A stretch of DNA of 64,000 nucleotides, from contig NZ_JAPMLT010000001.1 of the NCBI RefSeq assembly GCF_026410385.1, positions 620,001 to 684,000 of the forward strand, given 5' to 3'. Shown one piece after another: positions 2,590 through 20,100 of this stretch. A program made the position numbers and the translations under genes. The first letter of the stretch is position 1. Each line of letters begins with the position of its first letter. A model generated the notes under the pieces. That model was not told the DNA's origin and ran no database searches. It saw nothing but the letters and a program-made list of their open reading frames with translations. This stretch comes from Tumebacillus lacus. GTDB taxonomy: Bacteria > Bacillota > Bacilli > Tumebacillales > Tumebacillaceae.

Positions 2590-3480
2590 CTAGAGCTGCC
2601 GATCCGGCTTGACCGAACCTTTGAGCGGACGGCGATAGGCATTCTCCAGCAAGGGCACCCGCCGGACGATCTCGATGGCTTTGTCCGGGTCTCGGTCGAG
2701 CGGGAGCAAGAACAGAGCCAGTCGCCCGCTGTTCAGATCGCGCTTGGAGAGCGGCACGAGCGACGGTTCGCCGGAGTCGTGGTAGACGCCGAGAATCGTC
2801 GAGACGTCGTGCAGGATCGCTTGCCGTTGGCCGAGGTTGCCGATGGTGACGGTGGCGTTGGCGTTTTTCGGAACGAGGATCAGTCCGACGCCGTTTTTGA
2901 CCAGTTTCTCCTGGCTGTCTTTCAGGCCGGAGTTGTAGATCAGGATGTCGTCGACAAACAGGTTCGGACCTTGAAAATGCACCTTCGCCTTTTTGATCTC
3001 CACAACCGAGCCGAGCGTGCGCCCGGACATGAAGCGGTGGGCGATGAACAGGCCGATCAAGCCCACGATCAGCCCGCCGATCCATGTGAAAAAGTGCGTG
3101 GCCAGCGCGGAAAAAAAAGCGTTGGCGATCACGAGATAATTGCGCCCTTCAAACGCCATCGCGATCCCTTCTATATAAGTGACACCGCGCGGCACCAGTT
3201 CCATCGAGTCAACGTTGGTCAGCATCTGCCGCTCCATGTTGCGCACATCGCGAAACTGCTGGGCGGCCAATGTCAGGAACGTCACCGCCGTGTAGTTTTT
3301 GTCGAGCAAGGTGGCGACCAGCACCGCCCCGAGTCCAGACGCGATCACGCCGAGCGCCAGATGGACGATGCGCCCGTGCGGATAGGTCGGGTACTGGCGG
3401 TAGTCGGTGCGCAGCAGATTGAGACGGCAGGCGATACCGCAGATCGTGCCGATCAGGATGATCAGCGTCGTGTCATGCAT
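2590..3480 (-). CDS. YIEGIA family membrane protein
   Basis: This 296-residue integral membrane protein contains the family-naming motif YIEGIAMAFEGRNY at about residue 102. Hydrophobic segments are visible near residues 5-20, 40-60, 122-145 and 130-150, followed by a soluble C-terminal half of roughly 140 residues. The family is common in spore-forming Firmicutes and has no proven role. The start overlaps the upstream membrane protein gene by 8 bases and the small capping-type protein follows, so a three-gene membrane complex is plausible. The assignment to the family is firm and the role is unknown. Confidence 0.82.
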   Translation of the reverse strand: MHDTTLIILIGTICGIACRLNLLRTDYRQYPTYPHGRIVHLALGVIASGLGAVLVATLLDKNYTAVTFLTLAAQQFRDVRNMERQMLTNVDSMELVPRGVTYIEGIAMAFEGRNYLVIANAFFSALATHFFTWIGGLIVGLIGLFIAHRFMSGRTLGSVVEIKKAKVHFQGPNLFVDDILIYNSGLKDSQEKLVKNGVGLILVPKNANATVTIGNLGQRQAILHDVSTILGVYHDSGEPSLVPLSKRDLNSGRLALFLLPLDRDPDKAIEIVRRVPLLENAYRRPLKGSVKPDRQL

Positions 3481-4132
3481 GTTCGGGGCCTCCTTCCTGA
3501 TGCCCTGGGCGGAAGATCGCTTTGATCGTCCGCATCACAAATCGCACCGTCGCGTGATACGGACCGTGCGAGACCAGCACGCCGAGCATCGTATAGGCGA
3601 GCAGATCGCGCACCTCGCCGCCGCCAAAGACCGCCTCACCCCACTCCGGCTCCCAGTTGAGCAGCGGGTCGATCGACGCGGCGAGCAGGAGCCCGGTCAC
3701 TGCCGCCGTCAGCGCGTAGAACGGACGGCGCAGTGAGCAGACGGCGAGGATCACGGCCGATGCCGGAAACAGGATCTCGCTGTCGACGAGAAAGAACGCC
3801 GGATCGAGCGGGACCAGTGTCATCAAGATCACCAGCGCCGAAGCCACTGTCAACGTGCCGACCGCCCATTGCAGTCGCACACCGGCGTTGCGGGAGACGA
3901 TGAGCAGCAGCCAGACGCTGGCTCCCAAAGGGATCAGCGTCCCGCCGAGATTGATCTGTACACCGGCCGGGAAGGTCAGCGTCCAGTTCGAGAGGAACAC
4001 GAAGCCGATCAGAAACAGGAGGGCTGTCCGCACCCCCATCTTGGCATCATAGAGCGCTTTTTCGCCCCAGCCGGTGACGATGAGAATGGTCAGCACGATG
4101 GCGATGATGTTCGCTTCCACACCCGGATTCAT
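3473..4132 (-). CDS. Polytopic membrane protein, possibly YphA-like
   Basis: A 219-residue protein with about seven hydrophobic stretches and a hydrophilic C-terminal tail ending GHQEGGPEHA. Its place just ahead of the YIEGIA gene and close to der matches yphA of B. subtilis, but sequence support for that family is weak by eye. The ATG start is preceded by GAGAGGGGGAT, a good ribosome binding site. It is the first protein gene downstream of the structured RNA at 4232-4436. If that RNA's terminator is leaky or conditional, this operon would lie under its control. Function unknown. Confidence 0.6.
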   Translation of the reverse strand: MNPGVEANIIAIVLTILIVTGWGEKALYDAKMGVRTALLFLIGFVFLSNWTLTFPAGVQINLGGTLIPLGASVWLLLIVSRNAGVRLQWAVGTLTVASALVILMTLVPLDPAFFLVDSEILFPASAVILAVCSLRRPFYALTAAVTGLLLAASIDPLLNWEPEWGEAVFGGGEVRDLLAYTMLGVLVSHGPYHATVRFVMRTIKAIFRPGHQEGGPEHA

Positions 4133-4231
4133 CTCAAGATCCCCCTCTCAAGGAAAACAACCACCACATCAGACTGTCTGCTGTCAGTTTTGCCTGTCCT
4201 TGCCGGGGGTATACGCCCAAAAGAAGACGCC

Positions 4232-4280
4232 AAAAAAGCCCCTTGTCCGACGAAGTGGATTCGCTCGGCCAACGGGCTTT
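4232..4280 (-). terminator. Intrinsic terminator after the tRNA-like RNA
   Basis: On the minus strand AAAGCCC (4274-4280) pairs with GGGCTTT, with further TTG/CAA and CCGA/TCGG pairing inside, and six T follow (4232-4237). It lies 100 bases before the start codon of the 3473-4132 gene. CCCCT just upstream could pair with AGGGG of the hairpin, so an alternative fold is possible. Confidence 0.75.
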
Positions 4281-4297
4281 GTCAGGGGAAATCTATA

Positions 4298-4359
4298 TGG
4301 AGCTTCCAACCAGAGTCGAACTGGTATTCCCTTTGCTCTGCCACAGAGCTTTTGGAAGC
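4298..4359 (-). other. tRNA-like domain lacking the anticodon arm, with CCA
   Basis: Acceptor strands are GCTTCCA (4353-4359) and TGGAAGC (4302-4308), seven perfect pairs. A D-like arm GCTC-TGTGGCA-GAGC lies at 4335-4349. The T arm ACCAG-TTCGACT-CTGGT (4309-4325) fits the TTCRANY loop rule. The 3' end is T then CCA (4298-4301). Only nine bases separate the D-like and T arms, where about 27 plus a variable loop would be expected, so the whole anticodon arm is missing and no anticodon exists. It cannot decode. All remaining stems are intact, which argues against simple decay. Confidence 0.75.
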
Positions 4360-4443
4360 GTAGTAGGGAATGTTCTCTCGCAACGTCATATTCTGTCGAA
4401 TCTTGTTGTAAGCTGTCGTATCTGCGATGAGAGAACGATTAGT

Positions 4444-4472
4444 AATATAGCACGGGATGTGCTAGTTTGCAA
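4444..4472 (-). promoter_or_regulatory. Sigma-A promoter of the tRNA-like RNA
   Basis: On the minus strand TTGCAA (4467-4472) and TATATT (4444-4449) are separated by exactly 17 bases. The predicted start, seven to eight bases further, falls on the first base of the GTTCTCTC stem, which supports an independent RNA start. Confidence 0.75.
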
Positions 4473-4521
4473 GAGGTTTGATGAATGAAACAATTTTTCG
4501 AAAAAGGAGAAAAAACGCACA

Positions 4522-4564
4522 GAAAAGAAGCACCCCGTCCCTACTTCCTCAGGGTGCTTTTTTC
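4522..4564 (-). terminator. Terminator of the DUF1028 gene
   Basis: AAGCACCC (4528-4535) and GGGTGCTT (4552-4559) form the stem and T runs flank both sides. The hairpin begins inside the last codons of the DUF1028 gene. Confidence 0.7.
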
Positions 4565-5259
4565 TCATCCGGTTTTGCCATGCCCTCCATCATGACACCG
4601 CGCGAAGTGGTGTCGACCCACTCGTGGTAGGCGGACATCAGGCCGTTTTTGTGGATGTCGTAGAGCCGCCGCAGCTCTTTGAGCGGCTCCGGGTTGTCGT
4701 CGACGCGAATGTCGATGTAGGGCCATTCGTCGATGTCGACGACGAGCAAGGCGGCCGATTGTTTGCCACGCCGGTCCCCGCCGGCCTTTTGGCCGGCTTC
4801 GAGTGCTTGCAGCAGCCGCATTTCAAAGGGGGCGTTCGATCCGACATACGCGGCGGCCGTCGCCTGCACGACCTCTTCACCGACCAGCAGGTTGCCCTGC
4901 ACGGTAAAATTGTCGCCGACGATGTGCCCGCGCCACTCGTTGGCCTCCTCGCCCGTCCAAGCGGCGGCGCGGCCGTACTTGTCCACCACGCCGAGCTGCC
5001 GGTACTGGCGACCGAGGTCGTGGGCGAGCAGTTCCTGCAAGGTCTCCTCCGCCGACAGCCCGTGTTCGAGCAGCCGCAGCCCTTTCGGTCCGAGCGTCGG
5101 GTTGACGCGCGCCTGGGTGGCGATCGCGCCCACACCCGCTTTGGCGAACGGGCAGAGCGAGCCGACGGCAAACGCTTTGGTCGTCACCGCCACGCCGAAC
5201 CGCCCCGTGCGCGGGTCGCGGGCGACGATGGAAAACGTGTTCAGTTCGATCTCTGACAT
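4549..5259 (-). CDS. DUF1028 family protein (Ntn-hydrolase-like)
   Basis: A 236-residue soluble protein with the DUF1028 start MSEIELNTFSIVARDPRTG and the downstream GVGAIATQA segment. DUF1028 proteins belong to the N-terminal nucleophile hydrolase superfamily by fold, and their substrate is unknown. The ATG at 5259 is chosen because AAGGAGGGGG lies 7-8 bases upstream, and a longer open frame to 5361 has no such site and runs into arginine/serine-rich non-family sequence. It lies 28 bases after fni and ends in its own terminator. Confidence 0.85.
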   Translation of the reverse strand: MSEIELNTFSIVARDPRTGRFGVAVTTKAFAVGSLCPFAKAGVGAIATQARVNPTLGPKGLRLLEHGLSAEETLQELLAHDLGRQYRQLGVVDKYGRAAAWTGEEANEWRGHIVGDNFTVQGNLLVGEEVVQATAAAYVGSNAPFEMRLLQALEAGQKAGGDRRGKQSAALLVVDIDEWPYIDIRVDDNPEPLKELRRLYDIHKNGLMSAYHEWVDTTSRGVMMEGMAKPDEKKAP

Positions 5260-5287
5260 CGCCTTCCCCCTCCTTGTGTTCGGTTGC

Positions 5288-6349
5288 TTATCGAGACAGA
5301 CCGCGCCGTGCGACCGACTCGATATCGATGCCGCGCAGACGGCACCACTCCGCCGTCTCACCGCGCACGATCAGCGGCCGCTGTGCCAGATCGGTCACGC
5401 GTGCACAGCCTTGCAAGGTCAGCACGGCCCGCAGTTCGGCGTGCCAATGCTCGACCAGTTCCACCGCCGCCTCCAGCCCGTGCTCCATCAGCGGACGCAG
5501 GATCGCCCCGGCCACGCCGACTGCGCGTGCGCCGAGCGCGAGGCATTTGGCTGCGTCGAGAGCGTTTTGCACGCCGCCGGAGCCGATCAGGTCATAGCGG
5601 TTCAGATACGGCTGCGCTTCGAGCAGGGAGACGGCCGTCGTCTGCCCCCATCCTTCGAGATCCTGAAAATGCAGACCGCTGCGGCGTTGGTTTTCAATCG
5701 AGACGAAGTTGGTCCCGCCGCGTCCCGCCACGTCGACGACCGGCACGCCTAGCTCTGCGAGCTGTTCGTACGTCTCCGCCGCCATGCCGTTGCCGACCTC
5801 TTTGACGATCACCGGCACGGACAGCCCTTCCACGACTTCGCGGATCTGCTGTGCGATGCCTTGGAAGGAACGGTCTCCTTCCGGCATCGTCAGTTCTTGC
5901 GCCACGTTCAGATGCAGATGCATCAGATCGGCGCCGATCATATCGACCGCCCGCTGTGCATCTTTGACGCTCGCTCCCGCTCCCAAGTTTCCGATCACGA
6001 TGCCGTCCGGGTTGAGCTCGCGTACGATGGCATAGGTGCGCACCAACCGCTCGTCCTTCAACGCAGCGCGCTGAGAGCCGACAGCCATCGCCAGCCCCGT
6101 GCGCTGTGCGAGCGCGGCCAGATCGCGGTTGATCCGCTCTGTCTGGTCTGCCCCGCCCGTCATCGCATTAATCAAAATCGGCGAACTGAATGTCAGTCCG
6201 CCGATCTCGGTCGCAAGGGAGACGTCTGCCAAGTCGCACTCAGGCAACGCCCGGTGTACGAAGCTCAGATCGGAAAATCCGGTGTTTCTCGTCACCGGCA
6301 ATTCCAGTGCATAGCGCACGTGGTCGAGCTTGCGTTGTTCAATTGACAC
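5288..6349 (-). CDS. fni: Type 2 isopentenyl-diphosphate delta-isomerase
   Basis: Fni is an FMN- and NADPH-dependent cytoplasmic enzyme that interconverts isopentenyl and dimethylallyl diphosphate for isoprenoid synthesis. The 353-residue length, the N-terminal RKLDHVRYAL region, the INAMTGGAD segment near residue 62, the GRGGTNF motif near 210 and the phosphate-binding GSGGVQNALDAAKCLALGA region near 260 all fit a TIM-barrel Idi-2. It sits beside the S1-like gene, as ypgA/fni does in related Bacillales. No type 1 isomerase is seen in the window. Confidence 0.94.
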   Translation of the reverse strand: MSIEQRKLDHVRYALELPVTRNTGFSDLSFVHRALPECDLADVSLATEIGGLTFSSPILINAMTGGADQTERINRDLAALAQRTGLAMAVGSQRAALKDERLVRTYAIVRELNPDGIVIGNLGAGASVKDAQRAVDMIGADLMHLHLNVAQELTMPEGDRSFQGIAQQIREVVEGLSVPVIVKEVGNGMAAETYEQLAELGVPVVDVAGRGGTNFVSIENQRRSGLHFQDLEGWGQTTAVSLLEAQPYLNRYDLIGSGGVQNALDAAKCLALGARAVGVAGAILRPLMEHGLEAAVELVEHWHAELRAVLTLQGCARVTDLAQRPLIVRGETAEWCRLRGIDIESVARRGLSR

Positions 6350-19967: not shown

Positions 19968-20100
19968 CTCTCATCTCTCAGAGCGCTGCTTGCAGCGCTC
20001 TGCAGGAATTGGCACCGTGCATCTGAAAAAATCAAAAACGTGTCAGATGCCGGTTGCCGGGCTTCATCGGGCCAGTCCCTCCGCCTACTCTGGATAAGAG
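19968..20100 (-). promoter_or_regulatory. SAM-I (S-box) riboswitch
   Basis: Minus-strand sequence shows the S-box signatures in order: P1 strand CTCTTATC (20093-20100), AGAGTAGGCGGAGGGACTGG, CCCGATGAAGCCCGGCAACC, GGTGCCAATTCCTGC and closing GATGAGAG (19968-19975). P1 strands pair over eight positions. S-adenosylmethionine binding is expected to favour the terminator at 19906-19935 and switch off metI-metC. Confidence 0.96.

Follow-up and report, generated by a model that had tools for sequence, protein, structure and literature searches.

A predicted small RNA of one bacterial family that bears, in a single genome, a tRNA-Thr-derived body without an anticodon arm

In tmRNA, a tRNA-like acceptor, T arm, and CCA end are combined with another helix in place of the anticodon stem, and bacterial Y RNAs with a tRNA-like module, viral tRNA-like ends, and T-box leaders also mimic or bind tRNA; the T-box and Y RNA families are both included in Rfam. 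C-rich small RNAs (sRNAs) of Bacillota such as RoxS/RsaE and FsrA present an unpaired C-rich motif near the terminator. The pseudo-tRNA tRNA-Other of Bacillus cereus is, as that report outlines it, a tRNA-like element that does not decode and forms part of a larger regulatory RNA; it occurs in close relatives only, retains its anticodon (Trp), has mapped transcripts, and is proposed to act together with flanking sequence complementary to mRNAs (PMC3399842).

In the window, that is, the whole 64,000-nucleotide stretch of DNA analyzed here, reading and folding of the sequence reveal a predicted sRNA of about 205 nt on the minus strand (4436 to 4232), with homologues in six other genomes. Like tRNA-Other in the outline of that report, it is a longer, here predicted, Bacillota RNA containing a non-decoding tRNA-like element; unlike tRNA-Other as so outlined, its tRNA-like body has no anticodon arm and lies in a short promoter-to-terminator unit, and its relatives keep the RNA without the body. 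With tmRNA it shares the acceptor, T arm, and CCA, but it differs in the absence of Rfam and ARAGORN matches, in the retention of a D arm, and in the replacing helix, one strand of which would come from upstream of the acceptor. As in RoxS/RsaE and FsrA, its mostly unpaired C-rich motif lies near the terminator, whereas the window copy has no Rfam match and two homologues have none above the cut-off. The reading we prefer, to which we give about an even chance, is that of an sRNA restricted to the family, which probably originated from a tRNA-Thr transcription unit and acts via the C-rich motif.

The RNA is preceded by a sigma-A type promoter (minus strand, 4444..4472), TTGCAA (4472–4467) and TATATT (4449–4444), with the 17-nt spacing that an earlier sequence-only reading of this DNA had described; a TG precedes the −10 box, and a scan of 4140–4560 found this site as the only promoter-like one (mean in shuffles, 0.2). 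The predicted start at 4436 is the first base of an 8-bp stem, GTTCTCTC/GAGAGAAC (4436–4429 with 4379–4372), just as that reading had placed it. This stem closes a 5' hairpin domain (4372..4436, minus strand) with a CGACAGCTTACAACAAGATTCGACA segment (4394..4418, minus strand) that was aligned to CGTCA...TTCGAC of the sister-genus RNAs described below. On the 3' side, the C-rich motif CATATAGATTTCCCC (4299–4285, minus strand), whose first CA is shared with the encoded CCA of the tRNA-like body, is followed by an intrinsic terminator (about 4280–4232, minus strand; final TTTTTT at 4237–4232). The terminator, also claimed by the sequence-only reading, is visible in the RNAfold fold but was not flagged by a simple terminator scan, presumably owing to its long, imperfect stem. 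The folding energy of the RNA corresponds to z = −2.88, with 2 of 200 shuffles equally stable. Its own promoter and terminator, intergenic position, and lack of a conserved ORF are traits of trans-acting sRNAs. The sequence supports a separate RNA gene that carries both a promoter and a terminator and has a predicted transcript, and it constitutes strong evidence for a family-specific RNA gene.

Downstream of the RNA lies its syntenic neighbor, a yphA-like membrane protein gene (3473..4132, minus strand; Pfam YphA, E 8.9e-4, 19.4 bits, short of the cut-off of 28), and upstream lies a DUF1028 gene (4549..5361, minus strand); in three genomes of the sister genus (g2), the upstream gene reads, by eye, like one for a HAD hydrolase. 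Outside the RNA, the downstream gene has a sigma-F-like promoter, GTATA-N15-GGCAAAACTG (4185..4214, minus strand), and such a promoter stands ahead of the yphA-like gene in all seven genomes of the family examined. A promoter of this kind suggests that the forespore expresses the pair yphA/YIEGIA. In the three relatives from the window's genus, a micropeptide of 26–33 aa made of W-I-x-V-E repeats is encoded a short way downstream of the RNA (L241, minus strand; L242, 2964; L243, 3094). A SAM riboswitch is also present elsewhere in the window (19968–20100, minus strand, 82.7 bits).

The central part of the window copy is a tRNA-Thr(GGU)-derived body without an anticodon arm (4298..4359, minus strand), consisting of an acceptor stem, GCTTCCA (4359–4353) with TGGAAGC (4308–4302), a D arm, AGCTCTGTGGCAGAGC (4350–4335), a T arm with the loop TTCGACT (4325–4309), and, at its 3' end, U73-CCA (T-CCA, 4301–4298), all on the minus strand. 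The T arm with a TTCRANY loop and the encoded CCA had been recognized in the sequence-only reading; the D arm had not been named there, and its presence strengthens the tRNA reading. The acceptor, D, and T stems all still pair. Because the anticodon arm is absent, decoding by this body is impossible. A similarity search with the RNA in 61 genomes, its own included, gave matches outside the own genome for the 3' part only, with 27 of 28 bases (96%) identical to tRNA-Thr genes of G007 and G011, which belong to another family in the order, and 94% identity over 32 bases in a third genome; all six matching places lie inside tRNA-Thr(ggt) genes. A Bacillus-type tRNA-Thr matches the same 28 bases in full. 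In a comparison with 202 distinct tRNA strings, some of which are runs fused by parsing, the best score was 59, obtained with tRNA-Thr(ggt), against a maximum of 25 in 60 shuffles. Alignment to tRNA-Thr shows that the acceptor, D arm, and T arm are kept and that the losses fall in the anticodon arm, of which AAGG..AT from the 3' strand remains. Collectively, these comparisons are strong evidence for descent of the body from a tRNA-Thr(GGU) gene.

An ordinary tRNA or tmRNA was rejected because ARAGORN called neither in the whole window, the Rfam search proposed with the sequence-only reading returned no family at E ≤ 10 over 4150–4560, T-box riboswitch and Y RNA models included, and the 66-nt core scored 10.6 bits with the Rfam tRNA model (RF00005), below its cut-off of 29. 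The description of a tRNA mimic without an anticodon arm is in keeping with this result, since no Rfam model covers the element at cut-off. On the other strand, a Plastid-ycf2 match that stayed under its cut-off (E 0.002) was taken as an echo of the tRNA complement, and a known phage or plasmid source was rejected on the grounds that there was no phage match and that two Vibrio plasmid matches covered only 32 nt. The host's own tRNA-Thr(GGU) genes that were found have a different acceptor, GCCTTTT or GCCCTTT. In other genomes of the family with matches, the best alignments to the body begin after the acceptor 5' strand, which aligns fully in two other families; G003 gave no match in this acceptor alignment search. 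Owing to this acceptor mismatch with the host's family, the source of the body would be either an old family gene or a foreign gene.

The two interlocking 7-bp pairings of the sequence-only reading are both present in the sequence, one being the acceptor stem and the other a putative pseudoknot helix of ATTCCCT (4371–4365) with AGGGAAT (4332–4326), both strands read directly on the minus strand. In the alignment to tRNA-Thr, AGGGAAT falls on the 3' strand of what was the anticodon stem, and its pairing with ATTCCCT, which precedes the acceptor, would recreate a stem like that of an anticodon arm. The evidence for this helix is weak, with p values from shuffling of 0.01 (12-nt linker) to 0.03 (whole 5' part) and with the body and the pseudoknot known from a single copy among the seven members. 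Thus, the earlier statement that every helix is far from chance is too strong for the pseudoknot helix.

The distribution of the RNA was analyzed in seven genomes of the family, comprising the window's genus (the window genome, G001, G002, and G003) and the three g2 genomes. A homologous RNA is found near yphA, and on its strand, in all seven, directly upstream in four and at a distance of about 3.8 kb in three; in the three sister-genus genomes, an alignable RNA lies upstream of the yphA-like gene. A covariance model built from the window and these three sister-genus RNAs (R1) found in a class search a fifth member, G002, weakly (E 0.42), and missed G001 and G003, whereas on 10-kb stretches around yphA (42.6 kb) it detected the three window-genus relatives with E values of 1.6e-5, 4.7e-5, and 0.0038. 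A second model (R2), built from the six non-window members and hence finding those six by construction, recovered the window copy left out of it with E 1.8e-4, over its 3' part. All seven members have in common TATATT, ATAGAT followed by CCC, and a terminator ending in GGGCTTTTT. Because the yphA-like proteins of the relatives are only 44–50% identical to that of the window, such shared non-coding sequence points to selection. The folds of the six homologues are also more stable than those of shuffles (z −2.3 to −5.3).

The covariance search in relatives, likewise suggested earlier, yielded the homologous RNA in six other genomes and the tRNA mimic in none of them. At the site of the mimic, the six homologues have a simple hairpin, at variance with the view that the mimic is the core of the RNA, and by reading the D arm, the T loop, and the pseudoknot strands are each missing from all of them. 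In the three sister-genus RNAs, the place of the body is occupied by GCTTC, a short hairpin, and GAAGCTGCATATAGAT, and the central stems in the window's genus are CTTCCC...GGGAAG in G003, ACTTCCC...GGGAGGT in G001, and CCTTCCC...GGGAGGA in G002. All central-stem pairs listed, which were placed by eye, are standard in six of the seven members, and some differ on both sides; the exceptions are the outermost pair, C.A, in G002 and an outermost G.A in G003 that was left out. Taken singly, the six relatives show no tRNA similarity above that of shuffles, so that a family-wide tRNA origin rests on the GCTTC...GAAGCTnCATATAGAT frame, seen in the window copy and the three g2 genomes, together with the promoter type.

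Beyond the family, R2 gave matches in 32 of 398 phylum genomes (own included) at E ≤ 0.05. In all seven genomes of the order outside the family, the matches were weak (E 0.0378 or worse), and extra weak matches were also obtained within the family, from E 0.003. Judging from the scores and the covered positions, we regard the weak matches as chance, many of them spanning the terminator only, and accept no member outside the family. A motif search of the contig collection gave 22 matches, against about 30 expected by chance in our own estimate, and only Tumebacillus avium (L184) among them has the RNA in context; the exact pattern of the motif was absent from the viral contigs. A literature search, covering titles and abstract openings, retrieved nothing on the RNA or on anticodon-armless phage tRNAs. 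The sRNA family appears to be undescribed and, as far as the genomes examined show, is confined to the family containing Tumebacillus avium.

As to the origin, the promoters of the RNA resemble the rRNA/tRNA operon promoters of the family (for example, TTGCACTCTAGCAATACACGTGATATATTATCTCTTGTCGCC beside such genes), and the operon start is GTCGC, with six members of the RNA family starting with GTCG. The presence of a stable-RNA-like promoter together with a tRNA body suggests that the RNA originated as a transcription unit for tRNA-Thr. At the 3' junction, the window has GAAGCT-CCA followed by TATAGAT, and the sister genus has GAAGCT-GCA followed by TATAGAT; an old origin is supported by the sharing of both sides of the tRNA end. 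Alternatively, the body could have been gained in the window's lineage alone, by recombination at a similar hairpin.

According to the preferred reading of a tRNA-Thr-born sRNA acting via its C-rich motif, the stable-RNA-type promoter would drive the RNA and the intrinsic terminator would end it, as judged from sequence and conservation. The gene would probably have arisen from a tRNA-Thr(GGU) transcription unit; in the window genome, the tRNA body would survive minus the 5' half of the anticodon arm, and the surviving 3' anticodon strand could pair with a new upstream strand to form the pseudoknot. Most likely, the body serves structurally, as a stable element, or in processing, for example as a handle for RNase P; the six relatives have only a hairpin in its place. 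The function of the RNA probably resides in the conserved AUAGAUUUCCCC segment, which is mostly unpaired, lies between the central hairpin and the terminator, and may pair with G-rich ribosome-binding sites of mRNAs.

In the predicted folds, the motif has fewer paired bases than the RNA on average in six of the seven members, the exception being G002, in which it is mostly paired. In all seven genomes, the motif complement resembles a ribosome-binding site followed by a start codon, as would suit an sRNA that masks sites of translation initiation. When the seven genomes were searched for the motif complement with one mismatch allowed and with the reversed pattern as a control, at least 276 matches were obtained in total against 100 for the reversed controls, that is, at least 175 versus 79 in four genomes and 101 versus 21 in the other three, where part of the matches are 16S copies. 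Motifs that are frequent in coding sequence may account for the excess. Sixty of the at least 276 near-matches were read in context, and none besides the RNA locus was a convincing gene start. In a duplex ranking against 54 genes of the window, yphA came fourth. Copies of GGGAAGGTCTAT in the g2 genomes were rejected as repeated targets because they proved to be the antisense of 16S rRNA in the five loci read.

Anticodon-armless elements also occur elsewhere. In viral contigs, there are 84 stretches (L070–L153) in which no more than 5–18 nt separate a D arm from a T arm, as detected with a pattern set for ordinary D loops that would miss the shorter loop of the window. All seven acceptor pairs (G–T allowed) are formed in 54 of the 84, many of which are near-duplicates; a single stretch overlaps an ARAGORN call, 19 have a normal tRNA within 500 nt, and about six, by our own count, encode CCA. 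When 11 of the viral loci were scanned with Rfam, six elements scored above the tRNA cut-off. The window body resembles the phage elements in having the acceptor, D arm, and T arm, with a D-to-T spacing within the range of 5–18 nt, and differs from these six of 11 in lying below that cut-off. No consistent pseudoknot was found in the phage elements, and most of their best helices fell within the range of 50 shuffles, with a few, such as that of L137, exceeding it. The viral stretches may represent a class of anticodon-armless phage tRNAs. The armless elements at about 6684–6740 of L082 and 1907–1965 of L102 are placed as if they were mRNA processing sites, among genes that we take to be podovirus scaffold, capsid, or tail genes; in L102, an Rfam abiF RNA lies just upstream of the element. 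Among 398 class genomes, the pattern of D arm, short gap, and T arm was present in four, the window's included; of the other three stretches, one fails to fold as a tRNA, and a pair from one family have an odd tandem arrangement. These two (L341 and L342, near 1501–1542, in G049 and G203) carry T, D, and T arms in tandem, lack a complete anticodon arm, and gave no Rfam match at cut-off. A looser armless pattern matched in 14 of 14 order genomes, as did its reversed control.

Several other explanations ascribe a different part to the body. It might itself be active, as a decoder-less tRNA serving as substrate, handle, or decoy for putative partners such as RNase P, the CCA enzyme, ThrRS, EF-Tu, or another tRNA-binding partner; the intact acceptor, T arm, and CCA, the identity of the acceptor/T half with tRNA-Thr genes at 27 of 28 bases, the different acceptor of the host tRNA-Thr(GGU), which suggests selection or recent acquisition, and the many phage contigs with tRNA-like elements devoid of an anticodon arm are all in line with this idea. 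Nevertheless, we consider it somewhat unlikely, in view of the absence of the mimic from six of the seven family members, which leaves the window copy alone and no covariation, and of an Rfam tRNA score (10.6 bits) under the cut-off. In known cases, moreover, threonyl-tRNA synthetase needs the anticodon, which counts against the body as the active part. At the other extreme, a decaying tRNA-Thr operon would have left the body as a functionless fossil, the RNA being perhaps non-functional in the window genome. The loss of the anticodon arm from a tRNA-Thr body behind a stable-RNA-type promoter would be expected in that case, and the hairpins of the relatives do differ in sequence; yet the −10 box, motif, and terminator have been kept across seven genomes in which neutral DNA is saturated, and the window copy still pairs in its acceptor, D, and T stems. 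Decay of the whole is accordingly an unlikely account; the body may be a plain fossil, whereas the RNA is less likely to be one. We regard as rather improbable a further proposal, built on the pseudoknot, that the body is a tRNA-Thr made blind to the ribosome, in which the rebuilt anticodon stem would leave processing and elbow contacts intact and RNase P would deliver the C-rich segment.

Two further alternatives concern the locus rather than the body. If the RNA were a leader or attenuator that acts in cis on the yphA/YIEGIA genes downstream, its position on the same strand, directly upstream, in four of the seven genomes would fit. Such a role is very unlikely because yphA has its own sigma-F-like promoter in all seven, past the terminator where the RNA adjoins, and because the RNA lies about 3.8 kb away in three; in G001 and G002, the two with ORFs listed, opposite-strand ORFs intervene as well. 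The complement of the motif has, in all seven genomes, the appearance of a ribosome-binding site with a start codon, and AGGGGAAATCTATATG might thus begin a small protein on the opposite strand, with its RBS-like box and ATG kept in seven of seven. However, the frame that follows runs for 63, 47, 22, 18, 6, 371, and 44 codons, and its translations have no common sequence by eye, so that coding there is extremely improbable.

The preferred reading, an sRNA with a C-rich working part that was probably born from a tRNA-Thr transcription unit, makes the birth of an sRNA from a tRNA testable within one family, in which one genome has the body and six have the bare hairpin, and the alternative, that an sRNA captured a tRNA, can be tested in the same family. 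If the body is indeed a tRNA-Thr hidden from the ribosome, it would form, together with the armless elements of phages, a class of decoder-less tRNAs used as handles or punctuation in RNA. As a natural body without an anticodon arm, it could also help to tell which tRNA enzymes make do with the acceptor/T half.
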